Below, piece by piece: positions 1,446-30,056 of a DNA stretch of 30,056 nt; positions within the stretch are counted from its first letter, which is position 1, and each line of letters opens with the position of its first letter. The position numbers and the translations under genes are program-made. A model generated the notes under the pieces. That model was not told the DNA's origin. It made no database searches and saw nothing but the letters and a program-made list of their open reading frames with translations. Source of the DNA: a virus; IMG/VR virus record IMGVR_UViG_3300028025_001394, positions 1 through 30,056 of that record, one strand, 5' to 3'.

Positions 1446-1470
1446 TAAAAGCCTTTCTCGCTCTTATACA

Positions 1471-1759: not shown

Positions 1760-1762
1760 ATA

Positions 1763-2365
1763 TTAGTAGGTAACCTCTACCTGTATGTGCGCTGTAAAGT
1801 ATAGTCTAAAGTATGGAGATGTATTGATCTGCTGAGGAGCATTTACTCCAGACTTATAGTCGGTATCCTTGTTAGGAGTATAGACTATTGAAGCTGGAAG
1901 TGATGCTTTGACTCCCGTCATTTTTGCACCAGATGCAGCATGTCTTGTATTTGGGTCGCCTTTTTTATGAAACATTAAACTATCACACTTAACAGTAAGT
2001 ATCTTGTAAGACTTTACTGGCTTATTTGTAACAGCTTCAATCATTGCTTGTGTCAAGATAAACGATTGTGACTGACCAGTTTTTCTAAAGTCAGCAGCCT
2101 TAGTTAAATTAATTGTAATTTCTTGTACTGAGCTTTGTGTTCCGCTAGCATTTGATCCATCTGGGTTTCCAGATGCTGGATTTGGAGATCCTGCGGTATT
2201 TCCTGTTGCCCCACTTACGGTAACGACTGGAGCTTCTACGGCTGGCAATCTATATATCTGAGCAATTTGAGACGCAAGGAAGTTTACATTCTGAATAAGC
2301 TTATTCAATACGTTAATATCGATTGGCTCTCCTGGCTCGAATGGCTTTAGATAGTTAATTGTCAA
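1763..2365 (-). CDS. Hypothetical protein, probably virion surface or tail accessory
   Basis: I do not recognise this 200-residue protein. Residues 1-45 look helical and start with a PFEPGEP segment. Residues 50-85 are a low-complexity Gly/Ser/Asn/Pro linker. Residues 85-200 look like a beta-rich domain (alternating hydrophobic residues, ending VEVTY), which is typical of phage structural proteins. The start is TTG at 2365, overlapping the TGA of the preceding gene (TTGA), with a good GGGGAG ribosome site about 10 nt upstream. It is the last structural-looking gene before the HNH endonuclease. A head decoration, tail-tip or fibre-associated role fits the context but is not shown. Confidence 0.65.
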   Translation of the reverse strand: MTINYLKPFEPGEPIDINVLNKLIQNVNFLASQIAQIYRLPAVEAPVVTVSGATGNTAGSPNPASGNPDGSNASGTQSSVQEITINLTKAADFRKTGQSQSFILTQAMIEAVTNKPVKSYKILTVKCDSLMFHKKGDPNTRHAASGAKMTGVKASLPASIVYTPNKDTDYKSGVNAPQQINTSPYFRLYFTAHIQVEVTY

Positions 2366-2905: not shown

Positions 2906-2928
2906 TTGTTTCCTTTTCTCTCTAGATT

Positions 2929-2957
2929 AGTATATATGTTATTTATGGCTTTGTCTA
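2929..2957 (-). promoter_or_regulatory. Sigma70-type promoter inside the tail-fibre cluster
   Basis: On the minus strand TAGACA (2957-2952) lies 17 nt from TATACT (2934-2929); each box matches consensus at 5/6. The TAG of the -35 box is the stop codon of the 57-residue gene. It would start transcription of the coiled-coil gene at 2905 and the genes after it. Confidence 0.65.
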
Positions 2958-3128
2958 GCCTAAAGACTCATAGTAGGAGTCTGGCTTTGGGACATACTCT
3001 TCTCCACTATTCAGTGCGTCTGCGTGGTGCCTAGCCTTTAGTTTATACTTATAGGTTGCTAGGACGTTCCCAGCATCATCTATAACCGTATATTTTGATA
3101 GATCTTCGGTTCTTCCGATATCATGCAT
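2955..3128 (-). CDS. Small conserved-looking protein (57 aa)
   Basis: The frame starts at ATG 3128, overlapping the TGA of the fibre gene (ATGCATGA), and ends at TAG 2957-2955. The 57-residue product is charged and rich in Tyr/Asp/Lys, with a beta-hairpin-like first half (YTVIDDAGNVLATYKYK) and a helical stretch that follows. No domain is recognised. The tight overlap with the S74 fibre gene suggests coupled translation and perhaps a role in fibre assembly, which is a guess. An AAGG lies about 12 nt upstream of the start. Confidence 0.65.
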   Translation of the reverse strand: MHDIGRTEDLSKYTVIDDAGNVLATYKYKLKARHHADALNSGEEYVPKPDSYYESLG

Positions 3129-5994
3129 TATTGTTTACCTTTTCTTCTAGTTGTTCAACCTTTAATGATAAAAACTTAACAGCATTAAATAGATGAGGTA
3201 TTAAGTTTTCTCTATTTATTTCCATATAGATTGGACTACCGTCATCATCTACTTGATCTGGTATGCCGCTAACAATATCTGGATATTTAGGATAAAATTC
3301 TTTAGCCAAAAATCCAGTTATCTTTCTATTGCTATCAAGGTCCTCCAGGGAATGGAATTTATAAGTATTTATACTTTTAATATCTTCTAAGAAGCTATAG
3401 TCATTAAATACTTCAATATTCTTCTTAAGTCTTTCGTCTGACCCTGCCGCAAACGTTGGTGTAGTTGTTGTGCCACCTACGTTAATCTTTCCAACGTTAG
3501 TATACGTGCTTCCAGCCGCCCATGACTTCTGGAACTGAATTATAGATGTTGATGTTCCTAGCTCGGTGGTTAGATTAGCATTTGTTCCGTTATCTCTTCT
3601 TACATAAAGTGGACCTTGTGTATTTGAATTATTATATGCCTGGACAAGTGCGCCTTCGACAATGTAGGTTCTTGCCAAAAGGGAGGTTCTCCATGCACTG
3701 GCATACCATCCCTTGACAACCCAGTCACCTCCTGATGTTTGCTCAATCCTACTGTCTGCTTGAGATGGACTTGATGATGTAAAAAAGTTAATTGTTGAAG
3801 TGGATCCAGTTGACGCAAACATTGCTATATTTGATCCCTCTGATAGGGTTAAAGCATCGTCTCCATCTGTTCCAATATAAATCTTTCCAGTTCCACGAAT
3901 AACTGTTCCTCCAGAAGCAGAGGTAAGTGTATCGGTTCCAATAGTCCATCCGCCAATATTTCCAGTAGAGCCAGTAATTGTTCCCTTAAATTCCGCAGAA
4001 CCGTTTGAATTAATGGCAACTGTTTGTCCATTTGCATCATAAGCTTTTATTCCAGTAGAGTCTATATTAAGTCTTGCCCCAGTTGTTCCTGTATTGATAT
4101 TTAAATTATTAAGATTAATAGTTCCAGTATTAATAATACTACCAGAAATAGTTGTTGTATTAGTTCCGCCTAAGTGGTTCTTTACATCTCCAGAACTTAC
4201 TTTTCCTGCTAAGGCATCTGTTGTTGCAACATTCGACCCAGTTCCAACAACTGTAAGTGTGCCACTAATTGATACCGATCCATCTGCGCCTACAGAAAAA
4301 TTTGGACCCATGTAAAGTTGTCCATTTGAGTAAAGACCAACAGTGTTTCCAGCTGTATTTGTAGTTGTCAACGAGCTCTGGTTAATTGTCCAGCCACCAA
4401 TAGTTCCGCCTTGTGCTATCAGCTGACCAGTATTTGCATCAATTCTAACTAAAGCAGTTCCGCCAGTGGTTGCATTATATCCATATACTCCAAGGCTTCC
4501 TATCTCTACTCTTCCTCCAGAACCAGTTGCTTTAATAGCACCACCATTAAGAAGTAAGTCTCCTCCACTATTTAAAGTAACGTTTCCAGTAAATGTAGAA
4601 GCTTGAGTAACATTCAATGATCCTTTTACGGATAGAGTAGAACCATTCCAAGTTAGTTGATCTTTTAAGCTAAACTTTCCTAGAGCATCAAAGTAAAAGG
4701 GAGTATTGGCGTTATTGTATGTGCCAGTTCCATAATATATTGCGGGAGTTGTTGCAGTACCATCAATTGTAATTTTATTTGCACCAGCATCGTCTCCAAC
4801 AAAAAGCTTTCCTACGATACCTGTATTTGTCTTAAGTCTGTCTGCGTCTATTGTGTTTGTTATTAGCTTATCCCCAACAATTGTGGTTGCTGCAATAAGA
4901 TCTCCCACAATAGTGCCGTCTGTAATAGAAGTCTGTGCATTAATTTTTCCAGGAACTGCGGTTGTTGTTGTAGACCAGGCCCCAATGTTTCCAGAAGAAT
5001 CTATGGCACGAACACGAACATAATAAGTTGTTCCAGTTGTCAATCCAGTAAAGGATGCAACTGTGCCTGTAATAGTTCTATCTTGTGTTAGTGGAGAAAA
5101 AGTATTTGATGTTGAAAGCTGAAATTGATATGTTCCTCTTCCAAGGTCTACGTCAGACTCTGTGTTTCTGCTCCAGTAAGCTATGATGTTATTAAATCCA
5201 GCCACAGCAACTAGTCCTGTTGGTGCCGCTGGGCCAGTAGTATCTCCTGGTATTGTTGCAGAAACTGGAGTTAAAGGTATGTAGGCACTTGGATTACTTC
5301 CATCTGTTGCATTTACTTGAAAGTAGTATGTTAACCCAGACCTTAACCCATTAATTACTTTTGAGTTTTGCCCCTTTTGCAAAAAGTCATAGTTGTCTAA
5401 AGCAGAAGCATTGGTTCCGTATCTAATGTAGTGTCCAAGTAAATCTGCTGAGGATGAGGGCGTGAATGATACTGTAGCATATCCAGTTGCTCCACTTTTA
5501 TCTCCAGGATCATTTGCTGAAGTAACAGATAGGTTAGAAGGAACTGTTGGTGGCTCTGTGTCTATTCCTAATGAGGCTACTGATATTGAGTTTGATGCTA
5601 CTGAGAATGCAGATACATTTCCACTTCTGTCTACTCCTGTAAACTTAAAGGTAAATGGTCCTGTGACTCCATCTGGCGCAGAGTATGTAAACCCTCCATT
5701 AATTGTAGCAATGGATCCTACTTTAGTGTAGGCTCCTCCTGAAGAAACATAAACATCTACTCTGTTAAAATCAATTGGTGTTGCGTATAAAGTCTCTACC
5801 CATTTTACATACACCCCGCCCATAACGGATTCAACAACGGGCTTGGATGGAACTGGCGGAGGAACAATATCTCCAACTACTGTGTAGTTAAATGCTCCAG
5901 ACCATTCGCCGATTCTTCCATCGTTAGCCTTGGGCCTAAATCTAAAAGCCCAGGTTCCAGGAGTAAGTCCAGATATATTCTTTTTTACTGGCAT
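3121..5994 (-). CDS. Tail fibre with FN3 domains and C-terminal S74 chaperone
   Basis: This 957-residue fibre starts with a partial fibronectin type III segment (residues 1-40), then three FN3-like domains (about 41-140, 145-245, 250-346). Residues 350-845 are a Gly/Thr/Asn/Ser-rich triple-beta-type shaft with two related GGWTI units near 531 and 683. The C-terminus (852-957) is an intramolecular chaperone auto-processing domain (Peptidase_S74): the motif SDERLK gives the expected Ser852/Lys857 dyad. In this family the chaperone trimerises the fibre and then cleaves itself off just before the Ser, here releasing about 106 residues. The product should be the distal receptor-binding fibre. The ATG at 5994 overlaps the previous TAA by one base. 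The next gene overlaps its end by 8 nt. Confidence 0.88.
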   Translation of the reverse strand: MPVKKNISGLTPGTWAFRFRPKANDGRIGEWSGAFNYTVVGDIVPPPVPSKPVVESVMGGVYVKWVETLYATPIDFNRVDVYVSSGGAYTKVGSIATINGGFTYSAPDGVTGPFTFKFTGVDRSGNVSAFSVASNSISVASLGIDTEPPTVPSNLSVTSANDPGDKSGATGYATVSFTPSSSADLLGHYIRYGTNASALDNYDFLQKGQNSKVINGLRSGLTYYFQVNATDGSNPSAYIPLTPVSATIPGDTTGPAAPTGLVAVAGFNNIIAYWSRNTESDVDLGRGTYQFQLSTSNTFSPLTQDRTITGTVASFTGLTTGTTYYVRVRAIDSSGNIGAWSTTTTAVPGKINAQTSITDGTIVGDLIAATTIVGDKLITNTIDADRLKTNTGIVGKLFVGDDAGANKITIDGTATTPAIYYGTGTYNNANTPFYFDALGKFSLKDQLTWNGSTLSVKGSLNVTQASTFTGNVTLNSGGDLLLNGGAIKATGSGGRVEIGSLGVYGYNATTGGTALVRIDANTGQLIAQGGTIGGWTINQSSLTTTNTAGNTVGLYSNGQLYMGPNFSVGADGSVSISGTLTVVGTGSNVATTDALAGKVSSGDVKNHLGGTNTTTISGSIINTGTINLNNLNINTGTTGARLNIDSTGIKAYDANGQTVAINSNGSAEFKGTITGSTGNIGGWTIGTDTLTSASGGTVIRGTGKIYIGTDGDDALTLSEGSNIAMFASTGSTSTINFFTSSSPSQADSRIEQTSGGDWVVKGWYASAWRTSLLARTYIVEGALVQAYNNSNTQGPLYVRRDNGTNANLTTELGTSTSIIQFQKSWAAGSTYTNVGKINVGGTTTTPTFAAGSDERLKKNIEVFNDYSFLEDIKSINTYKFHSLEDLDSNRKITGFLAKEFYPKYPDIVSGIPDQVDDDGSPIYMEINRENLIPHLFNAVKFLSLKVEQLEEKVNNNA

Positions 5995-6950
5995 TAAATA
6001 TCAAATCCCAGTCTATACTCAATATCAAATGGGACTCCACCTTCAACTACAAGTGGTGTTGTTAAAATAGATCTACTTACAAGTATTGCTTTATCAACAC
6101 TTGAGTACTGATCAAATCTCATGGCGTCCATTGTTACTGTTGATGCAGAAGCTCCAGAAGAAACTGTAATAGTAAGTTCCTGGGTATTTTCAATATTTGG
6201 GTCGCCAACACGAGAAAGCTGGGCAACGTTTATCGTAACGATATTATAACCAAGAGCTATTGATGCTGCTGGAATGGTGTATTGGAAGTAGTTTAAACTA
6301 TCTACGGCCATCTTAACTCCAAGAGAGTTGGGTACTGAGCCAGATACATGGAATGCAATTTTTATTTTATCTGATGATATTAGGTATCCCAGTGGTGTTG
6401 CGTTATACCATGTTGACTGCTTTGTTGATGATGAAGGAACAATAAACTCTAGCCCTGAGTCACCGACTCTAAGTCTTGGCGTTCCCTCTAAATCATTACT
6501 GTGTACAGAAACTCCAGTAGATAGCTCCCATGGTTCATAGTCTGGGTCAAAGGAGGCAAATATTTCTGGGTTATCATTTATATCATTAAGAACTGACATG
6601 TTGACGCCTCCGACAGTTGACAATCCAGATTCATAAACTACACCTTTAAAAGTAGATGGAAGTGTTGTTCTAAAAACAATTTGTGTGGGAGTCTGTGTAT
6701 AGTCTACAGTTTTAAACTGGACTGGTGTTGGAAACATTTCAAACCCTACAAATTCATCTGTTGCTAGTGGGGTAGAAGATCCACAGCCTAATACTATTCT
6801 TGAGCCATACTCAGAATTTTGTCTAGATAAATAATTAATTATCTGCTCTTTGCCATTATTGGTAACAATGTTTGTTGAGCGAGCAACCTCAATTCCATCT
6901 TTATAGAAGATATATTCCCCTTTAAGAGATTTTAATGAATTCAACGTCAT
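5994..6950 (-). CDS. Minor tail protein
   Basis: The 318-residue protein starts at ATG 6950 with a strong AAAGGAG about 10 nt upstream, placed inside the preceding gene; the two genes overlap by 29 nt. The N-terminus (LKGEYIFYKDGIEVARSTNIVTNNG) resembles the start of phage tail appendage proteins that attach to the tail tip. The centre and C-terminus look beta-rich (residues 140-290, carbohydrate-binding-like strands such as FHVSGSVPN). No catalytic motif is seen. It lies between the tail hub and the S74 fibre and runs into the fibre gene by TAATG, so a baseplate or fibre-connector role fits. The assignment rests on context and composition. Confidence 0.68.
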   Translation of the reverse strand: MTLNSLKSLKGEYIFYKDGIEVARSTNIVTNNGKEQIINYLSRQNSEYGSRIVLGCGSSTPLATDEFVGFEMFPTPVQFKTVDYTQTPTQIVFRTTLPSTFKGVVYESGLSTVGGVNMSVLNDINDNPEIFASFDPDYEPWELSTGVSVHSNDLEGTPRLRVGDSGLEFIVPSSSTKQSTWYNATPLGYLISSDKIKIAFHVSGSVPNSLGVKMAVDSLNYFQYTIPAASIALGYNIVTINVAQLSRVGDPNIENTQELTITVSSGASASTVTMDAMRFDQYSSVDKAILVSRSILTTPLVVEGGVPFDIEYRLGFDI

Positions 6951-7308
6951 AGTCGTCAGCTCCTTTTACATCGTTTAGTGTTGCAGTAACATTTGCTAGA
7001 TATGTTCCATCTCCAGTAAATGAACCTTCTTGCTCGAATAACACTGAAGTTACGGAGCCAAGCTTTTCTTCCTCTTCGCTATCCTCATCCTCAAAGTCTC
7101 CGACCAAATTGGGATCATCGACAACAGAATCGACAGCATCTACTGTTAGTAGACCATCCTCAGTTCCCTGAGTTTGTATAGTTAAATATCCAAAAGGGTC
7201 TTTTTGGGATTTACCACCTACCAGATCGACATCTAGGTCATCTGGTGCAAATAGCTCCTCGTCGCTTTTTACGGTTCTATTGCCGTAATTTACCTTTTTG
7301 TTTGTCAT
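6922..7308 (-). CDS. Acidic small tail-cluster protein
   Basis: The 128-residue protein is strongly acidic. Residues 16-30 and 62-84 contain runs of Asp/Glu (EDEDSEEEE), and the last 35 residues look like a beta domain (GDGTYLANVTATLND). The ATG at 7308 overlaps the stop of the hub gene by 4 nt and has a CAGGAAG ribosome site. The 3' end overlaps the next gene by 29 nt. I recognise no family. The acidic linker followed by a compact C-terminus suggests an adaptor between hub and appendages, or an assembly factor, but this is inference. Confidence 0.6.
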   Translation of the reverse strand: MTNKKVNYGNRTVKSDEELFAPDDLDVDLVGGKSQKDPFGYLTIQTQGTEDGLLTVDAVDSVVDDPNLVGDFEDEDSEEEEKLGSVTSVLFEQEGSFTGDGTYLANVTATLNDVKGADDYDVEFIKIS

Positions 7309-10300
7309 ACTACTTCCTGCAGTCTAATGCTAGTGGATATACCATTGCTAAATGACTGGCTTATACTAGTAATTATAAACGAATGTGATGAATAAGACAA
7401 GCCTAGGTCTGGATAGGATATATCAACTGTGTCACCTAGCTGAACTAAGGGATTAGTAAATATCTCTATATCAAGGATAACTGGGTCATTTGTCTTGCCC
7501 GCCTTGACTATTGCAGAATTGGTCTTAATAAACTCAGCAATATCTTTAGCCTGAGATTCAGACTGAATCCATTCGCTATCTATCTCAAACTTGGAGTCGT
7601 CGCCGCTAGATTTTGATACAGTAGTTTTATACTCTTTTGGCTCAAACTTCTTTAGGGTATATCCAAGGAGCTTCGGGTACCCAGCCGCTGCTGTGCCAGG
7701 AAATGAACTTGAGATATCCAATGGCTCGTTTGTTTCATTAACTGCAGCAATTTTTGCTCTAAATGAATTTGACTCAAGTATCGTTGCTCCGTATTGAGAT
7801 ACCGATGCTCCTGCTGCAATCTTGATTGGAGATCCTGGAGGCTGAGTGTAATCAAATTCTTCAATTCTAATTTCTCTAATGTGTGGGTAGAATTCATAAT
7901 AGTCATAATCATTCTCTAGACTATTCTTACTAGGAACCCCTAGGCTTCCCGCTGCAATTACCTCAGTCATAAATCCTCTAATTGAGTCTGCAAAGAATGA
8001 GCCATCTTGAAGCGTGGACTCGTCATTTGCCCCCCATGCTGCAAACTTTGAAAAGAATGCGGTGCTATCTCCACGAACAAAACATCCGCCGATAGTGGTC
8101 TGTGCTAATGGAGTTTTGTCTTCAACCTGAAGGACTAGCTGTCCCATGAGATAAAGATCAATCCAGTTAGTCCCACCGCTCTTAATTCTCACAACCTGAA
8201 TGTCATAGTTTTGCTTCTCAACAAACGAAACGCTGTCTTTAAATATTGTGTCTGCGCCATCTCTTTTTGCACGTCCTACTGGAGCATCACAGGATCCTAA
8301 AACTTGCATAGTTCCATCTGGCTTTAACTTATAAATCATTATGCTTTTGTTAGCATCTGCCTTTTTGTATGAGAGTGTTGTTTCTTCTAGACCTAGTTCA
8401 ATAAAATATCCAGATTTAGTTGACTCGTTAAAGTCAAAAAATATGCCGCCGATACTATCTATGTCTCCAACCTTCTCTGTTGGCTGTTGCTTAACAAACA
8501 TCATATTGGCTTCGAATCTCTTATAGTTACTCTTTTTTAGATTAACTGACCCAATCTGAATATAGTTTCTTCTTTCTGCCTGCTTTAGTTTATCTAGGCT
8601 GCTAGCACCAGTATCATTATCAGTACTTAGCTTTAGTGCCCTATTGCCAATATCAAACTTTGGGCTTGATAGATTTTTAATTGCGGCTGGGTTTTTAATT
8701 GCAAATTGCTTTAAAGACCAATCACCATTATCAATAGATACTGGGCTATGGGCTTTTGCAGTAGTCATAAACTGGCCACGCTTAACCTTTGTAAGCTTAC
8801 CATTATGAATGATTGTTGAAATACCAGGATCTGAATTTACTAAAGACTGATACTCTTCTGTTGTAGATATATCTTTAAGCTCTTGTGAGCGTCCATCCTT
8901 ATAAGTTATTTTAAACTGAGTAGCACCATAATAAATAATTTCTCCATTTAGATAAAAGTATCCAGACATAAGCGGTAGTCCGTATAGCATTTTATAAATT
9001 GGCTCTTTGTTTTTTTCAAGAACTTGGTATAGTTCTGGTTTTTGAATATCAATTTCAGTGGCTGTTGCTGTTATGGCATACATAAGTGGTACTGCTCCAA
9101 GCACCCAGGACTTATCTGGCGCCCATAGTACTGTTGCATATGTAGAGCCTCTAAACATTATTGCCTCAGTACTCTTTCCAGTACTTGCAAGGTTATAGGA
9201 AGTTAGTATGTCGTTTTGAGTTTCAAACGATCTTCTAGAATACTTTACAGACAAAGATCCCACTCTAGGCTTTGCTGATTGACCGACATTAATAATATTT
9301 GGAACTAAAGTTCCATCTTGAGCATAAGTTAGCTTTTGCTCTACCGTTGCTGAATCTAAAACAGACTTTCTTGATTTGAATACGGGTCTACCGTACTCAT
9401 CAAAGTAAAGTACACACTGATGGGAGATACATAATTGTTGTAAAGCCTCCCAGAATGTCTCTTCCTTACTCATCCAGAATACTGGTATATTATCTTTATC
9501 ATCGGCATTTGCATCTAGGATAAGTTCATTTAGTCCAATCCCGTCAAAGGCCACACGCATCAATTTATTAATTGAATAGTTAAATCCAATCACCATATCA
9601 GGAGCCTGTGTCTGCTGAAGAACCTTTGCCATATCGTAGCAGTTAGCAGTAGCTGATTCGCTTGCTGAAATTGACCATGAGTCAACGTATCCAGTAAATT
9701 GTGGAATTTCTGTAGCATCAATTATTGAGAATATCTTTACACCAACACGCTTATCCATAAGCCCGTAGTATTTAGCATCAGTCTTCTCATAGCTGAAGTT
9801 ATTAAAAGTATTATCAAACATTATGTCTGCTGAATTAGAGCTAATAGTTCCTACTGGCAAAACCTCGTGGTCTTCGTACATTGTTTTCTGAATGTCCCAC
9901 GAAACAACGTCTTCTGTTATATTAACTTCTAGTCTAGGAGACATTTCAATTATTTCAAGTGGTGCATATCCTACGTTTACTGATCCAACAAAAACTTTGA
10001 TTCCTGTAATAGTCTGTGTGTTTTGACTTATGCTTGGGGCTGTATGCTTTGTTGTAGTCCAGGCTGTACCGTTATAATAAAGAACCAACCCTCCATTTGT
10101 GATTGGAGTCGTAGATGAAAATGCTTGAACCCAGGCTCCAGATACTCTTAAGAAAACCTTATAGTCTTGAGGGATTGTATGAAATGTTTCAAACTTAACA
10201 ACTACCTTGTTAACCTTTATATCTCTGTCATAGATAGCATAAACTGATTTATTTACAGTACTTCCTGATTGCCCTTTACGAATATGTGCCCAGTACTTAT

Positions 10301-10682
10301 AACCGTCATCCTTAGATGCAAAGTAGTTTCTTGAGGCTGCTGTCTGGCTATATGTAGTATTACCAGATGTTGAACCAGCAATTGCTTTTACAACTCCGCC
10401 GACTTTAGCATTATTATGAACAGCATACTCGCTTGGTCTGATTAGACTTACGATAGAGGTTAATGGATAAATTGATTCATAGTATTTGTTGTATACAGAT
10501 GAAGACTCAATTAGTTTAAGATCTGAGGTATCGTTATCCCACTCATAAAGCTTTGTATCATCAATACCCATCTCATTAATGCCAGCAGTCACATTGTAAT
10601 TCCATTCTAGAATAACCTTCTGTGATGGAGTTATATTATGTGTTGTGTCTAGCTTCGTCTTGATCGCTGGAAAATTTAACAT
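7305..10682 (-). CDS. Tail tip / hub minor tail protein with LamG-like insert
   Basis: This 1,125-residue protein is the largest tail gene after the tape measure. Residues 1-245 look like a beta-rich carbohydrate-binding-like region. Residues 250-450 resemble a phage tail hub (gp27/Tal-like), including FTGYVDSWSIS and a CYDMAKVL helix. Residues about 704-884 form a concanavalin/LamG-like sandwich (FEANMMFV, GIFFDF, GYFIELGLEE, YDIQVVRI). Residues 1040-1125 return to a hub-like beta domain that ends QLGDTVDISYP...SFIITSISQSF. It probably caps the tail and touches the cell surface. No peptidase or lysozyme motif is seen. The ATG at 10682 overlaps the Dit-like gene's stop (TAATG) and has a GAGGAGG site. 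Confidence 0.78.
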   Translation of the reverse strand: MLNFPAIKTKLDTTHNITPSQKVILEWNYNVTAGINEMGIDDTKLYEWDNDTSDLKLIESSSVYNKYYESIYPLTSIVSLIRPSEYAVHNNAKVGGVVKAIAGSTSGNTTYSQTAASRNYFASKDDGYKYWAHIRKGQSGSTVNKSVYAIYDRDIKVNKVVVKFETFHTIPQDYKVFLRVSGAWVQAFSSTTPITNGGLVLYYNGTAWTTTKHTAPSISQNTQTITGIKVFVGSVNVGYAPLEIIEMSPRLEVNITEDVVSWDIQKTMYEDHEVLPVGTISSNSADIMFDNTFNNFSYEKTDAKYYGLMDKRVGVKIFSIIDATEIPQFTGYVDSWSISASESATANCYDMAKVLQQTQAPDMVIGFNYSINKLMRVAFDGIGLNELILDANADDKDNIPVFWMSKEETFWEALQQLCISHQCVLYFDEYGRPVFKSRKSVLDSATVEQKLTYAQDGTLVPNIINVGQSAKPRVGSLSVKYSRRSFETQNDILTSYNLASTGKSTEAIMFRGSTYATVLWAPDKSWVLGAVPLMYAITATATEIDIQKPELYQVLEKNKEPIYKMLYGLPLMSGYFYLNGEIIYYGATQFKITYKDGRSQELKDISTTEEYQSLVNSDPGISTIIHNGKLTKVKRGQFMTTAKAHSPVSIDNGDWSLKQFAIKNPAAIKNLSSPKFDIGNRALKLSTDNDTGASSLDKLKQAERRNYIQIGSVNLKKSNYKRFEANMMFVKQQPTEKVGDIDSIGGIFFDFNESTKSGYFIELGLEETTLSYKKADANKSIMIYKLKPDGTMQVLGSCDAPVGRAKRDGADTIFKDSVSFVEKQNYDIQVVRIKSGGTNWIDLYLMGQLVLQVEDKTPLAQTTIGGCFVRGDSTAFFSKFAAWGANDESTLQDGSFFADSIRGFMTEVIAAGSLGVPSKNSLENDYDYYEFYPHIREIRIEEFDYTQPPGSPIKIAAGASVSQYGATILESNSFRAKIAAVNETNEPLDISSSFPGTAAAGYPKLLGYTLKKFEPKEYKTTVSKSSGDDSKFEIDSEWIQSESQAKDIAEFIKTNSAIVKAGKTNDPVILDIEIFTNPLVQLGDTVDISYPDLGLSYSSHSFIITSISQSFSNGISTSIRLQEVV

Positions 10683-21163: not shown

Positions 21164-22150
21164 TTATGCAGAAACTTTTACGTTCTTTACAACAACGAAT
21201 GCCTCTGGATTTTCGATTGCACAACCTGTTCTTACGAACATTGTGTACTCGATTGTATCCTTCTTAGGCTTGAATTCACGGTAGACCTGAATCTCACGCT
21301 TTACGCCAACAACTAGGTTGTTTGCAAATGTAAGATGGATGTCACCATGATGTCCTGTAGCACCTGAGTAATCGCCGTCCTTTGTCTCATCGATCAAAGG
21401 TACTTCAACTACTGGAATACCGAATGCGAATGGAATTACGCCTCCTGGAGCACCTGCTGGACCATTTGGGTTACCACGAAGAATTGAAGACGCAATGTCT
21501 TCAGGTGTTCCGCCGTTACCGATAGCTGTCAAGTTGTATAGGTAGTCCTGTACCAAGTTAGAACCAGTAAAGAACTTAAGTTCGTTACGGCGCTGCTTGT
21601 ACTTACGTGGCATTGCCTTGATTGCATTATTGAAAACTGCCTTTGAGATTACTGCACCGCCTGCGTTTACAACGTTTGCTGACTCGAGTGCTAGTGCACG
21701 GAATCCCTTAAACGCTGACATCAAACCAGTACCTGTACCAACGCCGTTGATCAAAAGATCTTCGATGTCGTTACCTGCCTGAGTTGCCATTAGGCGAGCA
21801 ATGTGATCCTCAAGATCAGCTCCTTCGATGTTGTCTTCAAGGGCTTCGCTTGAAAGTTCCCAGTCAAGACGTAGCTTCTTTGTTGTCAAAGAAATCTTTG
21901 TGAATGTGACTGCTGCATTAGCACCTGTTTGGGTTGCTTCTGTAGCTACTGTCATCAAACGTGTACCAACTCCAACCTTATCAATGTCTGCTGTGTTAGA
22001 ACGCATGCGAACTGTACGAGCTGCACGGGCAAGGATGGTAGCATCGAACATGTAATCGATGAATCGGTTAGCTTGGTCTGTGTTAAGAAGACCGCCATTT
22101 CCTGATCCAACGTTTGTAGTGTCTACTACTTTTTGTAGAATATCGCTCAT
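21164..22150 (-). CDS. Major capsid protein, HK97 fold
   Basis: The 328-residue protein has the pattern of short HK97-fold capsid proteins: an N-terminal arm (NTDQANRFIDYMFDATIL), an E-loop/strand region (KLRLDWELSSEALEDN), the spine helix (HIARLMATQAGNDIEDLLING), and a P-domain/A-loop segment (FGIPVVEVPLIDE) followed by VVGVKREIQVYREF. It lacks the roughly 100-residue N-terminal delta scaffold of HK97 itself, so scaffolding must come from elsewhere, probably the protease gene's C-terminal half. Ribosome site AAAGAGGTGA is strong. It forms the icosahedral shell. Position after portal and protease is canonical. Confidence 0.93.
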   Translation of the reverse strand: MSDILQKVVDTTNVGSGNGGLLNTDQANRFIDYMFDATILARAARTVRMRSNTADIDKVGVGTRLMTVATEATQTGANAAVTFTKISLTTKKLRLDWELSSEALEDNIEGADLEDHIARLMATQAGNDIEDLLINGVGTGTGLMSAFKGFRALALESANVVNAGGAVISKAVFNNAIKAMPRKYKQRRNELKFFTGSNLVQDYLYNLTAIGNGGTPEDIASSILRGNPNGPAGAPGGVIPFAFGIPVVEVPLIDETKDGDYSGATGHHGDIHLTFANNLVVGVKREIQVYREFKPKKDTIEYTMFVRTGCAIENPEAFVVVKNVKVSA

Positions 22151-23543: not shown

Positions 23544-25121
23544 TCAGGGCGTAACACGCCCTTCTCCTTGAGGATTTCTAGCATTTCCTGGTGAATCAAC
23601 TGCGTTACCTTGTCTTTCTTGATCACGCTGTCTGTTACGAGTTGCTTGTGCTGTTGCCTCAGAAGCTTGCTGTCCAGTAAGTTGAACGGGTTCATCCCCG
23701 CCAGATCTACCAGCCATGCCTAGTCTAGCACGAACTTCATTAGGAACAATGACCTTCATTCTCAAATATCTTTCATCGATCTTTGACTGAGTGTCTTCAT
23801 CTGTTAATGTTAATTCATTAAACTTTAATGTGAATGCATCTGTGAATTCAGCGATGATTCTATTAATCTTTTTTTCTAAATTCTTTTGTTCTGGTCTTGC
23901 AACCTGCTCTTTAAATGTCTTGTCTGCATCTTTAGCTGCTGCAAGAGAGACCCCTTCTGGTAGTCCCAGCTTTGAAATTGGAACTCTGTGTGAAATAAGA
24001 ATTTCGTCTCTATTCATTCTACGGTATTGATTAAATGATGAGTCTTGAACTCCTGATTCAACCGCTTCCATTTTGAACTCAACCTTATTACCATCTTCAT
24101 CTGCAGGTAGTGGAATATAAAGTGATCTATGATTCTTACCCTTAAGATTTGTTTGGAAAAATTCAAGCAACTTAGCTTCTGATGATCGGCTAAGTGTTGC
24201 ACCCTTTACAGTAATAATATATCTTGGGACCGCTTTGTTTTCAAAGTAGTCTAGGTTAAAGCGCTGTGCAAATTCATCTCCCGCTAATGCTGTCTTTGCA
24301 GGAATAATATCTGGTACGCCATAATAGCTATTGTTTGGCGTGTACTTCTTTAGATGAATTACTTCGTTTGGACGAGTATCATCTCCGATTGGATTTTCTG
24401 TTTCTGTGTCCTGGAAGTTTCTGAAGAATGTAATTCTGTTTCCAACGATCTGAACAAATCCATCACGCTGCTTACGAACACGCATTGTTGTTGCTGGAAT
24501 ATGTCCAATAAATCCAATTTGTCCATTTACCTTACGGCCAATTTCAAGGAAGCCATTACCTGTTGCCTCACGGTCTAGGAATGCTTTTGTTAATGTCTCT
24601 GTAAATGTGTCTTCTTCATTCATCAACTCTAGTTGATCCTGAAGTTCTTCCTTTAGGCTCTCAAGTCTTCTTCTGAATGCCGCCAGCTTCTTTTGGTCAT
24701 CTCCGTACTCTGACATCTTTTCTTTTGTCTTGCGGGTCTCAAGGAATTCGTATCCGAGCCCTACAATGTTTGAAGCCTTTGCATTACATGCTGCGAAGTG
24801 TGGGGAAGATACTTCGTAAATCTTTGCCAGGTAGTCTAGGTTGTATGGAGGGGTAACAACATCCATGATGTCGTATCCCATAAGGATTTCAGTTTCAACC
24901 TTTTTAGACTCAGCACCGTCTTGTCCTCTTTGGAACTTCTGGAGTAGTCTTGTATTCTTTCTCTTGAAGTTTGGTGAGAAGCCACGATACTTCGCAATCT
25001 CTTCTGCCTTTACGACAAATGGATCGTTTGTTGATTCTGACTCTTGTACTCCAAAGAATTCTCCAGAGATTCTTGCATGGATCTCTTTTGTGTTGTCTTC
25101 TTCATTAACTACATCTGACAT
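23544..25121 (-). CDS. Portal protein (PBSX/HK97-like)
   Basis: The 525-residue protein has the portal pattern: a mixed N-terminal region (residues 80-130, NLDYLAKIYEVSSPHFAACN), the stem/wing segment GNGFLEIGR, VIHLKKYTPNNSYYGVPDII near 252-271 (a hallmark of PBSX-type portals), the crown-proximal helix GDEFAQRFNLDYFENKAVPR, and RDEILISHRVPISKLG followed by long helices. The last 50 residues are polar and Gln/Arg-rich, probably disordered. Twelve copies form the DNA channel at one capsid vertex. The ATG overlaps the previous stop by one base. The length is normal for the family. Confidence 0.93.
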   Translation of the reverse strand: MSDVVNEEDNTKEIHARISGEFFGVQESESTNDPFVVKAEEIAKYRGFSPNFKRKNTRLLQKFQRGQDGAESKKVETEILMGYDIMDVVTPPYNLDYLAKIYEVSSPHFAACNAKASNIVGLGYEFLETRKTKEKMSEYGDDQKKLAAFRRRLESLKEELQDQLELMNEEDTFTETLTKAFLDREATGNGFLEIGRKVNGQIGFIGHIPATTMRVRKQRDGFVQIVGNRITFFRNFQDTETENPIGDDTRPNEVIHLKKYTPNNSYYGVPDIIPAKTALAGDEFAQRFNLDYFENKAVPRYIITVKGATLSRSSEAKLLEFFQTNLKGKNHRSLYIPLPADEDGNKVEFKMEAVESGVQDSSFNQYRRMNRDEILISHRVPISKLGLPEGVSLAAAKDADKTFKEQVARPEQKNLEKKINRIIAEFTDAFTLKFNELTLTDEDTQSKIDERYLRMKVIVPNEVRARLGMAGRSGGDEPVQLTGQQASEATAQATRNRQRDQERQGNAVDSPGNARNPQGEGRVTP

Positions 25122-25450
25122 TATTTAATCCCCGAATTTCTTAGAGCTTCTTTGTATTCACCAATGTCCAGAGGATCTGGTGTTAAGCCCCACTTTAGTC
25201 TTGCCTTCTGCTCTTCGTATTCCTCGTCATTAATCTTTCTCTGACCAGAAAGAAATACTGCGCTTCCAGTTTCAATTCCAAAACCTTTTACTACTTCAGT
25301 AATAGCGTCTACTTTAGTCTTGTCGCCTTTAAAGGCTGCTACGGATAAATAATTACCCTGATCGTCTCCTACCCAGCGTCCATCAGGCATCTGCCAGATA
25401 TATACACCTAGGGTTGTTTCTTCTAAAACTGAGGTTTTAATTGATTTCAT
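25121..25450 (-). CDS. Small pre-portal protein of unknown function
   Basis: Starting at ATG 25450 (MKSIKTSVLEETTLGVYIW) the product is 109 residues. An upstream in-frame ATG at 25489 adds a non-conserved-looking HYHKRWYHC-type stretch, so I reject it. The protein has a beta N-terminus with GVYIWQMPDGRWVGDDQGN and a helical C-terminus (NDEEYEEQKARLKWGL...PDPL). I recall proteins of this kind next to the portal in actinobacteriophages, but with no known function. No Shine-Dalgarno is visible. A -10-like TATCAT (25462-25457) lies 6 nt upstream of the ATG, which would fit a leaderless transcript. The stop overlaps the portal start. Confidence 0.72.
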   Translation of the reverse strand: MKSIKTSVLEETTLGVYIWQMPDGRWVGDDQGNYLSVAAFKGDKTKVDAITEVVKGFGIETGSAVFLSGQRKINDEEYEEQKARLKWGLTPDPLDIGEYKEALRNSGIK

Positions 25451-25510
25451 ATAGCAATGATACCATCTTTTATGATAATATGCCAGCATTTGTCGCTGTA
25501 GTGGTATAAA

Positions 25511-27955
25511 TTATGCTCTTTGCCAAGCAACTTTGTACGGGGTTAGGCCATAATCAATTACATTGAAGGAAACTTGTTCCAAAGCTAGGCTCTCTTGTGG
25601 GTATCCGACCAAGACTTCGTACTCTGTCTCAGCATCAAATGCGTCTAGAGTATATGCAGCCATGGCAAATAGTCCTAAAGTGATATCAGTTTGATTAGCC
25701 CCTGTGTCGTCTGACCCGATATAAATATCGTTAGCGGCATTTATTTTAGATCCAGATGTTAAAACTACATGGACCCAATCGTTTATCATTGCTTGATTAT
25801 CAAATGACTCTTTTCCATTTACGTACATCTTGGTAAAACCTGGATATTGCCAGGCTGTTCCGTCCCAATATAATGACTTTGTTCCAGACTTTAATATATA
25901 GCCATTTGTAGGCAGGGAACCATTGAGCTTAAATACTATTGATATTGATTTAGTTCCGTTAAATCCAGATGAGTCATAATTTCTAGACTGTGAAGGGATT
26001 TTAAGGTATGAATTTCCAGCAAGTCTTATTCCTGATTGATCAAGTCTGTCTAGCATCTCTAGGTCATCATCAAAGATTACGCAGTTGTCTGGGTTTACTA
26101 TGACTCCCGCCTCATTTGTGTTATCTGAAACAACTCTCTTCATTCCTTGGGTATATGCATATAGCCCTAGGTTTGAGACAATTGGAAGATCTTCTTCTGA
26201 GTCATTTGTAAATAAACTAACAGTAATGTTATATTCTGTAACCTGATTGCTAGGGTTATCTACCAGAGTAGGCATAGAAGCCATACGAGGCCATATGAGG
26301 CCATTGTTATAGGTAACTGATACATTCGGTGAGGATGTTGTGTAGAAGGCCAGAGAACCGCTGTAGTCGACTGCAGGCAGGGTTATTAATCCCTCAACCT
26401 TTCCATATTGTGACCACTTAAGATTATTGTTCATCTTTAAAATAAATGTTGATTCTTCATTATATAATCTATGTATAGTTAAAGGTTCATATTGAATTCC
26501 TGATTTAATTGCTACCCAAGTAATTGGGCATACGGCGTAAGAGTCATTTACCTTGCCGATATAGGCATTTGTAATTGTTTGCATATAATCAGTAGATGAG
26601 AAAACGCTTGAGCCATTTAGGTATACATTGAATGATCCTACTGTATTTTCTACAAGGATTTCATTCCATCCCGCCAATGGGCTAAATGTTGTTGCAGTCT
26701 GATTTCCATTTAGTGTAAATACTAGGTCATCCGAGCTATTTATTATTGCGCTAAAGCTTTGGCTTGATTGGAAATTATACAGAGACATCAGGGCTTTTTC
26801 TGGCGATGATGAGGTGTGGTAAAAACTCATAGATAAGGCTGTGCCTCGCTCAGATAGTCTTATCACATTAGATACATCTACATATGCCCCCGCACCAAGG
26901 GTCAAACCATTTCTAGCATCCGTGACAGACTGGGTTCCAGTGCCACCAGTAACCTCTGCATTTGATAGGTACCTCATAGTTAATTGATTGCTTGTATTTA
27001 CTAGAGAGTTTGTAAAGTTAAAATCTGTCCAGTTATTAATAAACTTATAAGCGATTAGACAGTCATTATTATTTGGGATATAAACTACCTGTGAGTTTGC
27101 ATTATAGTATCTATCCTTTAAAACAACTTTTCTGGATAGGCTAAGGTGGTCTATACTTCTTACGATATCAAAGTTATAGCTGTATAAGGCAATAGCGTCC
27201 ACGGTTATATCATAGTTATCAGAGCCATAAGTTTTCATTACCCCTGGATTCTGTGTAAACTGAAAGATTTCCGTAAGGGAAGACGATGACTTTGTTGATA
27301 TATTATTCCCATTGACGATCAGGGATATTCCGTTTGAGGAATAGTTTGCTACTACATGATATCTACGCTTCCAGTCTGGAACCTGATATGAAACATAGTA
27401 GTTTGTTAATGGGTCTGGTCTGAAGTAGATCTTATTTCTATAGACATAAATTCCATATGGTGCAAGTATCGTGGCATTTAATATTTCATCATATGTATCG
27501 AACGCTGCTAGAACTTGTGCATATGTCTGATAGTCATCAATTAGGTCCGTATAGGTTTGAATAGCAGAGCCCTGTGATGATTGAAGAAGTGCTTTATTTC
27601 CAAATAGCACTAGCTCGTCATCTACAGATATAGAGTCTTCATTTAATTTAAAGTACAACTCTATGCTAAATGATTGATTGCTTTTGCCTTTTGTCCAGAT
27701 ACTTCCATCTGTCCATGATTGTCCAGATCCCACCGCCCCTGGAAGGGGGTAGTAAATAGAAGCCGTTGCATCTGTTAGCCTTGTTCCATAAATACCGTTC
27801 GCTACTAATGGAATTGCTTTATTGAATATAGAGCCAGTGTATGCGCCATTATTCCCACTACCAGTAGCTTCTCTAGCAATACCTAGTGTAGTATCGTCAT
27901 CTAGCGGCCAAAATGATAGTGGGTTTTGAGACATTACTACTTCTCTATAGCCCAA
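25511..27955 (-). CDS. Large LamG-like (concanavalin-fold) virion protein
   Basis: The 814-residue protein opens with VVMSQNPLSFWPLDDDTTLG, the typical entry of LamG-like laminin/concanavalin lectin domains. Three such regions can be traced: about 88-255 (FSIELYFKL, RYHVVANYSSNGISLIVNG), 353-485 (LSMSFYHTS, FNVYLNGSSVF) and 638-765 (SISIVFKLN, VHVVLTSGS). Between them are beta-rich linkers. Such domains bind glycans, so it is probably a receptor-binding or decoration protein. The TTG start at 27955 has AGGGGG at good distance; an internal ATG (residue 8) is less likely. Its place before the portal is unusual for an adhesin. Confidence 0.75.
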   Translation of the reverse strand: MGYREVVMSQNPLSFWPLDDDTTLGIAREATGSGNNGAYTGSIFNKAIPLVANGIYGTRLTDATASIYYPLPGAVGSGQSWTDGSIWTKGKSNQSFSIELYFKLNEDSISVDDELVLFGNKALLQSSQGSAIQTYTDLIDDYQTYAQVLAAFDTYDEILNATILAPYGIYVYRNKIYFRPDPLTNYYVSYQVPDWKRRYHVVANYSSNGISLIVNGNNISTKSSSSLTEIFQFTQNPGVMKTYGSDNYDITVDAIALYSYNFDIVRSIDHLSLSRKVVLKDRYYNANSQVVYIPNNNDCLIAYKFINNWTDFNFTNSLVNTSNQLTMRYLSNAEVTGGTGTQSVTDARNGLTLGAGAYVDVSNVIRLSERGTALSMSFYHTSSSPEKALMSLYNFQSSQSFSAIINSSDDLVFTLNGNQTATTFSPLAGWNEILVENTVGSFNVYLNGSSVFSSTDYMQTITNAYIGKVNDSYAVCPITWVAIKSGIQYEPLTIHRLYNEESTFILKMNNNLKWSQYGKVEGLITLPAVDYSGSLAFYTTSSPNVSVTYNNGLIWPRMASMPTLVDNPSNQVTEYNITVSLFTNDSEEDLPIVSNLGLYAYTQGMKRVVSDNTNEAGVIVNPDNCVIFDDDLEMLDRLDQSGIRLAGNSYLKIPSQSRNYDSSGFNGTKSISIVFKLNGSLPTNGYILKSGTKSLYWDGTAWQYPGFTKMYVNGKESFDNQAMINDWVHVVLTSGSKINAANDIYIGSDDTGANQTDITLGLFAMAAYTLDAFDAETEYEVLVGYPQESLALEQVSFNVIDYGLTPYKVAWQRA

Positions 27956-27968
27956 TTTATCCCCCTAT

Positions 27969-28175
27969 TTATTCTGCGTTTACTGCTGCAATTGATGCAA
28001 TCTTGTCATCAATATGTGATTGAATAGACTCGATCTTTGCTGGGTCTGGTTCAGACTTAGCATTTTCTGCAACAATTTCCATTTCTAATGAATACATCTG
28101 GTATTCAAGATTACGAACCAAAGACAGCTTGATTGCAGACTTCTCGTCGTTACTTAGATTATTGTATGTTGGCAT
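27969..28175 (-). CDS. Small helical protein A of a paralogous pair
   Basis: The 68-residue protein is predicted to be two helices with a short linker (NEKSAI..LVRNLEYQMYSLEMEIVAEN, then PAKIESIQSHIDDKIASIAAV), suggesting a helical hairpin or coiled coil. AAGGAG lies about 7 nt before ATG 28175. It and the next gene upstream have the same length and layout and probably came from a duplication. Function unknown; trimerising tether for the neighbouring adhesins is one possibility. Confidence 0.7.
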   Translation of the reverse strand: MPTYNNLSNDEKSAIKLSLVRNLEYQMYSLEMEIVAENAKSEPDPAKIESIQSHIDDKIASIAAVNAE

Positions 28176-28185
28176 TTATTTCTCC

Positions 28186-28392
28186 TTATCCTAGTAGTGT
28201 TTTCTTTGATTCAAGCATCTGAATCTTTGCATTTAAATCCGCCAAAATATTTGTTAAATTGGCAACTTCATCTGCATTTAGATTGCTATTGATGCTATTG
28301 TATTCTAACTTAATCTCAGCATTATATTTTTCATAGGCCAGCTGCTTTAGGTGGCCATCTATAATCTGAATTTTTTCAGCATTACTTATCAT
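28186..28392 (-). CDS. Small helical protein B of a paralogous pair
   Basis: This 68-residue protein mirrors the next one: helix 1 (KIQIIDGHLKQLAYEKYNAEIKLE), linker (INSNLNADEV), helix 2 (LTNILADLNAKIQMLESKKT). A GAGAGGAT site precedes ATG 28392. Both proteins keep the same order of a Tyr-rich first helix, an acidic linker and a second helix with an Ile/Leu heptad pattern. Sequence identity between them is low, so relatedness is inferred from layout, length and adjacency. Function unknown. Confidence 0.7.
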   Translation of the reverse strand: MISNAEKIQIIDGHLKQLAYEKYNAEIKLEYNSINSNLNADEVANLTNILADLNAKIQMLESKKTLLG

Positions 28393-28406
28393 ATCATATC
28401 CTCTCG

Positions 28407-29954
28407 TTATACTCTAGCGGAGTAAGCTCCGTACTTTAATGAGTAATTTGTATCATATACTACCATTCTTGCCTGCAGGTATCTAGCTGATGTACTGTAT
28501 GGCAAATCTCTTGTTGTATATACTAAATAGCTCCATGTAAATCCATTAACATTAGGAGACGTTCTTTGTCCCGCATAATAGGCTGGCAAATCTGTCCACC
28601 CATAAGACCCACCAGTTTTAGTTGTATAAATTTCCCACTCCATCCATGCTGGCTCTGCAACAGATCCAGACCATGATACGTTATCCCATCCCCACTTCAT
28701 ACCTTGGCTTAATCCAGAAACAGAATATCGCTCAAAGTTAACGTATGGCGTTCCTATAGTTGGTGTAACATACGCAACTAATGTAGTTACGGATGTAGTT
28801 CCAGATCCCCCATATCCAGAATAAGCATTTCCATATGCCCTAACTGTAATATAGTAGGTACTACTTCCAGACAATCCAGTTACAGATCTTGAGGTGCTAG
28901 TAGTTGCTGTGCTTAATATATTTGTACCTCCGCTAAAAGTTCCTACATCAATTTGATATGAATCTGTATTAGAGGTTGGGGACCATGAAACAGTAAAGCT
29001 ACTTGATGTAACTGAGCTAGTTGTTGGAGACGGTGTTCCTGGTGGAGATGGGACCGTTGCTGAGCCAGTCGCTGTACCTGATTGTCTTGCAACAATTGAA
29101 CCATTTGCAGATGTTTGGTATGCTCCATTTCCATTATAAAGGGAAGTTACTGTAGCGTTAAGAGTTCCGTATTGATTTACTATATCCACAAATGTATCTG
29201 TGGTGTTTACTGATCCAAATGAGTGTTGAACAAGGTAGCCCGTAGCTCCAGGAACCGCATTCCAAGATATACGTGCACTAGTTGAATTATTTACTGCACT
29301 AACATAAACCGTTACTGATCCTGGAGAAGCACTGCTAGAAGATGTGCTAGTTGAAACTGGTGATGAACTTGCTGGAGCCCCATTACTTGAAGAAACAGAA
29401 TAATACGAAACTGGTGATGAAGCACCCCAAGATGCACTCCAAGAATTAGCTGCGGCTGAGACAGAAACATATGAAGGTTGGCTAGGAGTAGCAGTATTAT
29501 CTGTTATAGTTAATCCAGTTGGGGCGGCTGGGAAAACAAATACTCCACCTGTTGCTACTGCTGGAGTTGATCCACGAGCATTGATTGCAGTTACATTACA
29601 AGTAACTGTTGTACCTAAATCGGATGCTGTTAAATAATATAAATTTGATGTGGCCCCAGAAATTGGTGCGCTATTTCGAGTCCATTGATAAGAGTAAGAG
29701 CTTGGTGCATATGCTGGATCTGTGTTAACAGTTCCAGTATTTACTGAAAGACCATTTCCAGGAACTGGCTGAGCAGTAGATACATATGAAATACTTGGGG
29801 TTATTGTAAATAAAGGACTTTCTGGATAATTAATAATCCAAGATGATCCATTAAATATCCAAGATTTAGTTGCATTGGACCAGGCAGCTCCATTATAAAC
29901 TCTTAAGGCTTTTGCTTGATTCCAGGTGCTATTATCATATACTCTTAGTCCCAT
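28407..29954 (-). CDS. Ig/FN3-domain surface protein with N-terminal W repeats
   Basis: The 515-residue protein starts with three short tandem units near residues 3-42 (LRVYDNSTWNQAK, LRVYNGAAWSNAT, WIFNGSSWII). A beta-sandwich of Ig type follows (about 45-140: YSYQWTRNSAPISG...VTCNVTAIN), then Ser/Thr-rich FN3-like regions (about 150-300), a clear FN3 domain (about 303-390: SFTVSWSPTSNTDSYQIDV...YYITVRAYG), and a C-terminal domain rich in Trp/Tyr (390-515). These are typical of phage surface or fibre proteins that contact the cell envelope. The ATG 29954 has AGGA about 9 nt upstream. It is co-transcribed with the small paralogs and the LamG protein. Confidence 0.75.
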   Translation of the reverse strand: MGLRVYDNSTWNQAKALRVYNGAAWSNATKSWIFNGSSWIINYPESPLFTITPSISYVSTAQPVPGNGLSVNTGTVNTDPAYAPSSYSYQWTRNSAPISGATSNLYYLTASDLGTTVTCNVTAINARGSTPAVATGGVFVFPAAPTGLTITDNTATPSQPSYVSVSAAANSWSASWGASSPVSYYSVSSSNGAPASSSPVSTSTSSSSASPGSVTVYVSAVNNSTSARISWNAVPGATGYLVQHSFGSVNTTDTFVDIVNQYGTLNATVTSLYNGNGAYQTSANGSIVARQSGTATGSATVPSPPGTPSPTTSSVTSSSFTVSWSPTSNTDSYQIDVGTFSGGTNILSTATTSTSRSVTGLSGSSTYYITVRAYGNAYSGYGGSGTTSVTTLVAYVTPTIGTPYVNFERYSVSGLSQGMKWGWDNVSWSGSVAEPAWMEWEIYTTKTGGSYGWTDLPAYYAGQRTSPNVNGFTWSYLVYTTRDLPYSTSARYLQARMVVYDTNYSLKYGAYSARV

Positions 29955-29963
29955 AGTATTATC

Positions 29964-30056
29964 CTAGTACTGGATGTAAATATCGCCCGCTGCAGTTGCT
30001 GTAGGAAAAGCTCCAGAATTATTATAAAAGATTTTGTTTGCAGTAGACGTATTTGT
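29964..30056 (-). CDS. C-terminus of an unknown gene entering from the right edge
   Basis: The last 30 codons of a minus-strand gene are visible, ending TAG at 29966-29964, 9 nt before the next ATG. The residues (ANKIFYNNSGAFPTATAAG, then DIYIQY) are polar with a beta-like end, compatible with another surface or fibre protein. The rest lies outside the window, so no function can be given. Confidence 0.6.
   Translation of the reverse strand, partial: TNTSTANKIFYNNSGAFPTATAAGDIYIQY

Follow-up and report, generated by a model that had tools for sequence, protein, structure and literature searches.

A laminin G-like core gene before the portal of Stanwilliamsviridae-like phages, a candidate adhesin that diverges with the tail tip

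Introduction

The Streptomyces phages of the Stanwilliamsviridae carry, directly before a gene of the family phrog_9394 and the portal gene, a protein with laminin G (LamG) domains, represented by Annadreamy gp22, BillNye gp213 and TunaTartare gp21. Here we analyse a protein in the same slot of another virus, the IMG/VR record IMGVR_UViG_3300028025_001394, of which positions 1-30,056 were studied (30,056 nucleotides, hereafter the window; the whole record ends at 30056). This LamG protein comprises 814 amino acids (aa), starts with TTG and is encoded on the minus strand at 25511..27955. It is similar in sequence to its Streptomyces counterparts, with about 22-25% identity. Next in the direction of transcription follow the phrog_9394 gene (25121..25450, minus strand, 109 aa; E 1.3e-35), which is the constant neighbour of the portal, and the portal gene itself (23544..25121, minus strand; phrog_12 E 2e-56, Phage_portal E 3.5e-31) as the start of the head block.

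In the Streptomyces phages the slot gene comes after an endolysin or LysM-type gene. The version of TunaTartare is extended at the N terminus, and that of BillNye ends with an additional LamG stretch. In all 13 Streptomyces phage genomes that were opened a slot homologue was found in the same place with the product name “hypothetical protein”; only the Moab record adds the note “lysin A, L-Ala-D-Glu peptidase domain”. A printed function of the slot protein was not found in the open-licence literature on Stanwilliamsviridae, Streptomyces phages and laminin G, nor did that literature yield a paper joining phage, head fiber and laminin G. In the excerpted text of PMC9127768 a LamG gene is placed under host adhesion.

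On balance we lean towards a lectin-type adhesin of the virion that works together with the tail tip in host recognition. The LamG protein and an Ig/FN3 protein encoded upstream of it would be made with the late genes and then join the particle. The target of the predicted lectin domains would be the host surface, probably its cell-wall glycans, and the LamG protein would be matched to those tail-tip proteins that start DNA delivery, so that both together set host specificity. The other readings are weighed below where the relevant evidence is given; the confidences attached to them are overlapping and need not add up to one.

A core gene of the lineage

For the phylogenetic extent of the slot the best 80 of 468 portal loci in IMG/VR were inspected. 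The gene directly upstream of the phrog_9394-portal pair is visible in 65 of them and complete in 39; in the other 15 no slot is seen, as the phrog_9394 gene is either the first gene of the contig (8 loci) or was not called (7 loci). Each of the 65 visible slot genes has a match to another slot representative with E no higher than 1e-3. After 46 complete slot genes and that of the window had been merged into 21 groups, among them repeat copies of a single contig (L033, L034, L035, L042), BLAST joined all 21 representatives in one cluster (E below 1e-4). Group profiles connect the window type, the Streptomyces type, a 550-aa type and a 1100-aa type via L082, but several pairs of groups show no profile match. 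The window-type profile finds two of three Streptomyces-type representatives (E 4.2e-25 and 1.5e-16) and the Streptomyces profile three of seven window-type representatives (1.6e-29 to 1.8e-17). The representative of the window's own group (L004) is missed by the Streptomyces profile and matched by the 550-aa profile alone (5.2e-10). A tblastn comparison of the window LamG protein with a Streptomyces slot protein gives E 3e-7.

Annadreamy slot protein matches 127 phage records, all from Streptomyces phages, and the portal matches an equal number of Streptomyces records (the two lists were compared by count). Among 20 genes followed through the 13 Streptomyces genomes the slot gene has the lowest mean identity, 61.7% compared to 88.2% for the portal and 92.2% for the major capsid protein. 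This means that LamG is a rapidly diverging core gene of a Stanwilliamsviridae-like lineage, always located just before phrog_9394 and portal. It is present in every relative that could be checked, with no known function attached to it in any of them. Of the refuting case named in the sequence-only reading, a module universal in relatives and with another known function, LamG thus shows the first half and not the second. The sequence-only reading had proposed a recently acquired module. For LamG recent acquisition was rejected since it is a core gene and the G+C content of its region lies within the range of the window, and the proposal fits the accessory genes before it alone (see below).

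Family and fold of the LamG protein

The 814-aa protein reaches 29.1 bits with the Laminin_G_3 profile (curated cut-off 27.6), and 15 of the 21 slot representatives match this family at E up to 0.01. An AlphaFold2 model built on 18 sequences has a mean predicted local distance difference test (pLDDT) value of 73 and a predicted TM-score (pTM) of 0.54, the five models ranging from 61 to 73. Its strand list was read as three concanavalin A (ConA)-like jelly rolls at residues ~1-290, 305-495 and 620-785, with a beta sandwich at 500-610 and a disordered end at 785-814. The nearest folds in the PDB are ConA-like domains (Z 18-19, root-mean-square deviation 2.5-4.2, ~200 residues aligned), and the nearest chains are receptor-binding parts of clostridial neurotoxins and their partner proteins. 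This likeness of the model is taken as a shared jelly roll without functional meaning. Five of the best seven BFVD neighbours are Streptomyces phage proteins, four of which have exactly the length of slot genes in the opened genomes, and the BFVD entry of the 967-aa TunaTartare protein carries the name minor tail protein. A sequence search of the PDB with the slot profile returned a single match, an S-layer domain-containing protein (E 9e-4).

Divergence among relatives is spread over the whole protein and identity is lowest at residues ~300-480. A Pfam search found no S74 chaperone domain in the LamG protein or in the FN3 protein upstream, which is a weak criterion; many phage fibres have no chaperone domain of the S74 type.

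These folds, the fast divergence and the modular exchange described below bear out the adhesin-like nature that had been proposed from the sequence, but the fold alone reveals no function for LamG and this weighs against a firm assignment as adhesin. A ConA-like glucanase fold could also belong to a cell-wall-directed enzyme or lysis helper that is not part of the virion. The Pfam family name includes lectin/glucanases, the slot gene of Streptomyces phages stands behind endolysin or LysM-type genes, and the Moab note mentioned above speaks of lysin A. We regard this reading as quite improbable. No catalytic domain was found in the slot proteins of Annadreamy, BillNye and the window, and an ExDxxE-type pattern, which we take to be GH16-like, occurs in only 4 of the 21 representatives and is absent from the window type. 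A lysis function also sits badly with the coupling to tail-tip genes.

Coupled divergence of LamG and the tail tip

The tail-tip and fibre genes occupy 10682-3121 of the window, ~15 kb away from LamG, and all tail, head and pre-portal genes in question are on the minus strand. Covariation was calculated only from genomes in which both ends of the module are present (5-7 genomes), with identities taken gene by gene versus the window. The correlation coefficient r of LamG is 0.96-0.99 with the tail-tip genes, namely those of the 1125-aa minor tail protein (phrog_10359, 7305..10682, r 0.96-0.98), the 318-aa tail protein (phrog_9983, 5994..6950, r 0.98), a 128-aa protein (6922..7308, with a somewhat wider range of 0.94-0.98) and a 200-aa protein (1763..2365, r 0.99). 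It is 0.79-0.89 with the 957-aa tail fibre that follows the tail tip (3121..5994, fn3 and Peptidase_S74) and 0.44-0.60 with the portal. Partial correlations between LamG and the tail-tip genes given the head genes are 0.97-0.99, and with one genome for each of the four types the portal falls to -0.22 versus 0.94-0.99 for the tail-tip genes. The 200-aa protein matches no known family in PHROGs or Pfam and is a possible further part of host recognition.

The pattern is reciprocal. In G001 (locus L020) the genes from phrog_9394 to an 84-aa gene are 88-100% identical to the window, except for the adaptor (73%), whereas LamG shows 55-59%, the 1125-aa protein 59-60%, the 318-aa protein 55-57%, the 128-aa protein 49-52% and the 200-aa protein 42-47%. 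G002 and G003 show the reverse, with 78-79% in the portal and 72-74% in the protease versus 87% in the 1125-aa protein, 86% in the 318-aa protein and 78-79% in LamG; their capsid protein (96-97%) is an exception. A sixth contig (24352c) fits the pattern, as compared to G002 its head genes are mostly 93-98% identical, LamG 88% and the visible part of the 1125-aa gene 84%.

At the DNA level the identity to L020 rises in a step at 25440..25500 (60-base bins). The last ~900 bases of LamG show 53-80% per bin and from the gap between LamG and phrog_9394 on the next ~900 bases show 75-95%. At the other side the tape measure drops from 93-97% to 21-83% past residue 600. Its middle part is variable in other comparisons too, so this border of the block is less clean. 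From these steps it follows that the shared block begins with phrog_9394 and reaches into the tape measure, of which it covers the first third; LamG is outside.

A different explanation would be a lectin fibre on the head or neck, placed on the capsid or close to the portal vertex and responsible for a first and reversible host contact; head decoration had also been suggested by the sequence-only reading. The constant place of the slot beside phrog_9394 and portal in 65 of 65 visible cases, including Streptomyces phages that have no fibre island, could indeed point to a neck or head protein and counts against a tail-side adhesin. Head fibres that help attachment exist, e.g. in phage 7-7-1 (in the excerpted text of PMC12796354), and coupling to the tail tip could also come from both structures binding the same host surface. 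Nevertheless, the divergence of LamG does not follow that of the portal, protease or capsid genes, and the gene is no part of the shared head block. A head-borne protein might be expected to be exchanged together with the capsid genes, a weak criterion, but for LamG the correlation with the portal is low and the step at 25440-25500 separates it from that block. As nothing found ties LamG to the capsid and its divergence follows the tail tip, we hold a head or neck fibre to be possible but unlikely and give the tail side an edge as attachment site.

The coupling itself might be due to chance, i.e., to two independent recombinations in a few lineages, with LamG being a fast-evolving core gene of unassigned structural role. 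Several observations speak for this and thus weigh against a joint function with the tail tip. There are only four independent LamG types, with permutation p values of 0.17 (1125 aa), 0.125 (318 aa) and 0.08 (128 and 200 aa). The portal too reaches p 0.025 over six genomes, since nearly identical genomes push up all genes. With LamG, adaptor and tape measure are well correlated as well (0.82 and 0.83 over the six genomes, 0.78-0.83 in the larger sets, partial 0.73 and 0.90), and the tape-measure middle is variable in every comparison so that the boundary is not clean. Across the 13 Streptomyces genomes most genes show a correlation with the slot (portal 0.90, minor tail protein 0.96), and once the head genes are accounted for, minor tail protein and head-tail adaptor have an equal partial correlation of 0.72; in this set the correlations are tree-like and the coupling is not specific. 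Chance would have to account for the reciprocity, as G001 shares the head alone and G002 and G003 share tail tip and LamG more than the head, and for the fit of the sixth contig. We therefore consider it doubtful, to about the same degree as the head or neck fibre.

Both positions could be combined. LamG would then be a second, vertex- or neck-mounted adhesin that is obliged to match the tail tip, and a host change would proceed by swapping two distant blocks with the head kept; the fibre island of the freshwater members would add further fibres together with amino-acid-modifying enzymes (tryptophan halogenase, 2-oxoglutarate (2OG) oxygenases) that may decorate fibres. This is rather less probable than either of the two preceding readings.

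If an adhesin acting with the tail tip is the correct reading, a gene annotated as hypothetical protein in the 13 opened genomes, with homologues in 127 records, becomes a probable host-recognition protein. It would also be worthwhile to seek adhesion genes before the head genes and not just behind the tape measure, and in uncultured phages coupled divergence of genes on either side of a common head block could be a simple sign by which adhesins and tail tips are paired.

The accessory FN3 cassette and the fibre island

The gene order in the direction of transcription is Ig/FN3 protein, two 68-aa proteins, LamG, phrog_9394 gene and portal. Open reading frames (ORFs), PHROGs and Pfam thus agree with the sequence-only reading in that LamG, Ig/FN3 and two small proteins lie upstream of the portal and far from the tail tip. 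Its statement that the module stands before the portal is right as to order, but the phrog_9394 gene lies between and the group is cut by the record end, which is reached 102 bases past the start of the FN3 gene.

The Ig/FN3 protein (28407..29954, minus strand, 515 aa; fn3 E 8.6e-7) has an Ig-like part at residues ~46-145 by our own reading, and a PDB sequence search matched three FN3 domains. In relatives its length is 309-678 aa; the first ~250 residues are homologous (39-42% in distant types) and the remainder is type-specific. A conserved anchor end and a variable far end are therefore clear in this protein; in LamG the divergence is spread. Two small ORFs of 62-73 aa follow it in all 15 contigs with an FN3 match (the window, L004-L006, L009-L014, L016, L022, L024, L026 and L040). 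Before LamG this pair is absent from four contigs that have a complete upstream gene without match to FN3 (L020, L023, L030, L031). L007, L008 and L027 contain the second small gene with the gene upstream cut or unmatched, and G001 has a distant ORF similar to it at another place. Neither the FN3 protein nor the small proteins were seen before the slot in the 13 opened Streptomyces genomes.

The first small protein, hel1 (28186..28392, minus strand, 68 aa), is predicted by AlphaFold2 as a two-helix hairpin with helices at 4-34 and 40-67 (mean pLDDT 94.8). The second, hel2 (27969..28175, minus strand, 68 aa), is a distant paralogue of hel1, the score of their alignment being reached by 4 of 1000 shuffles. 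The helical nature of both that had been proposed earlier is thus backed by a model for hel1 and by kinship for hel2. No named family was found for them in PHROGs, Pfam, phage records and BFVD: the PHROGs search gave a best E of 0.032 for one and nothing for the other, 50,697 phage records contained no match at E up to 1, and BFVD yielded 0 matches to the hairpin model at E up to 0.001, with only generic hairpins at best E 0.049. The hel1 type switches together with the FN3 type. Most likely the small proteins are assembly or docking partners that would help the FN3 fibre.

Contig L005 is 93-100% identical to the window in LamG but only 66-90% in both small genes and the 3' part of FN3, and over the small genes it is 93-100% identical to L010. 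This pattern shows that the cassette was swapped, with the break at the LamG start. The proposed recent acquisition therefore fits the FN3 protein and the small proteins, which are exchanged between close relatives. The three genes form an exchangeable cassette, probably an accessory fibre unit of a larger island. Within the FN3 gene a patch at 29456-29157 is 75-86% identical between the window and L004, while the surrounding 100-base bins show 94-100%.

Upstream of FN3 or LamG the relatives encode proteins with HTHxG repeats, Gly_rich_2 proteins (E 3e-20 and 4e-10), a He_PIG Ig domain and proteins of ~100-130 aa. In the longest stretches that were read (G001, G002, G005) this fibre island spans ~18-21 kb, and the LamG/FN3 group of the window is the 3' end of such an island, truncated by the record end. 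The fibre with fn3 and Peptidase_S74 in the tail cluster means that adhesion-type genes occur on both sides of the head genes. In freshwater members LamG ends a large fibre and adhesin island before the head genes and in Streptomyces members it stands without it.

Some genes of the island may encode modifying enzymes. A tryptophan halogenase was found in G002 (L101:2620-4206, PF04820 E 1.7e-103) and another one, judged by eye, in G001 (L099:1591-3183). According to the excerpted text of PMC2984593 prnA is known in cyanophages, and the placement of the gene among fibre genes suggests fibre modification. L066 has a run of seven genes (1332-6157; 191-246 aa each) before the slot gene. Four of them were scanned, giving two 2OG-Fe(II) oxygenases (E 3.4e-14 and 2.7e-7), one DUF6065 protein (E 9.7e-31) and one without match. 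A 419-aa protein with Phe/Pro-rich repeats adjoins the oxygenase genes, so hydroxylation of a Pro-rich fibre is possible. Several other distant loci have runs of genes that are similar in size only.

Gene boundaries, lineage and host

The first four genes (FN3, hel1, hel2 and LamG) are separated by gaps of 10-14 bases. Purine-rich stretches resembling ribosome-binding sites, as judged by eye, precede FN3, both small genes, LamG and the portal, and terminator-like sites are not in excess (4 found versus 4.0 expected); the short gaps and the missing excess of terminators are compatible with a single transcript. The LamG start codon is at the same place in relatives, as ATG, TTG or GTG. The phrog_9394 ORF would encode 122 aa if read from 25489 but its start is probably 25450 because most relatives carry the 109-aa form. 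The region at 26-30 kb has 38-39% G+C, inside the 38-41% of the window, and differs in GC skew.

The portal is ~60-61% identical to that of Stanwilliamsviridae Streptomyces phages (20 of 291 records listed), and for homologous genes the order from the LamG slot to the metallophosphoesterase is the same as in Annadreamy, which has one extra gene between portal and protease. The major capsid protein (21164-22150 in the window) is 91-98% identical among relatives, their portal and protease often only 72-81%. Five of eight relatives searched gave a terminase match, and in all five the record shows it 38-47 kb away from the portal; the pre-portal place is therefore not the usual packaging position. 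The match in Annadreamy (NC_048719.1:61496-63967) spans seven in-frame stop codons, which suggests an intervening sequence.

WhiB scored above the cut-off in five of the eight relatives searched, including Annadreamy. The excerpted text of PMC6802176 describes whiB as restricted to actinobacteria, and its presence in relatives points to actinobacterial hosts. The host of the window virus is probably found among freshwater actinobacteria. A host call via genome contigs was not usable, as only one of 65 pattern-matched stretches encodes a relative and this one lies in a cyanobacterial metagenome-assembled genome (MAG). L127, a 110-kb contig in a cyanobacterial MAG with a portal of 59% identity, is perhaps a misbinned phage.

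Between the gp28 homologue and the head-tail adaptor (loci L129-L141) nine of 13 Streptomyces relatives have two to three extra genes, e.g. one of 884 aa in BillNye and Circinus and one of 692 aa in Patelgo, next to which lies a gene with the annotation “tail fiber”; such genes are missing from Annadreamy, Blueeyedbeauty, Kenrey and Gilson. The extra genes are a better candidate for a head-attached fibre than LamG.

Comparison with known systems

The LamG/ConA-like protein of Synechococcus phage S-SKS1 and the “putative adhesin” of Pseudomonas phage PaBG resemble the window LamG protein in fold, and the matches of this type are partial (TM-score about 0.2 or less). Within the window the S74 tail fibre has FN3 domains in common with the pre-portal FN3 protein, but S74 was not found in the latter or in LamG, and these two are encoded before the head genes. 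T4 gp57A is a small helical fibre chaperone encoded near the fibres. The two small proteins share with it small size, a predicted helical nature and proximity to fibre genes; a sequence link was not found.

For head fibres such as phi29 gp8.5 and those of phage 7-7-1 a role in adhesion has been proposed, as here for LamG; those of phi29 contain repeating helix-turn-helix motifs, according to a title cited in PMC12796354. A difference is that LamG does not covary with the capsid genes. It is a known kind of protein at an unusual position, which is fixed within its family.

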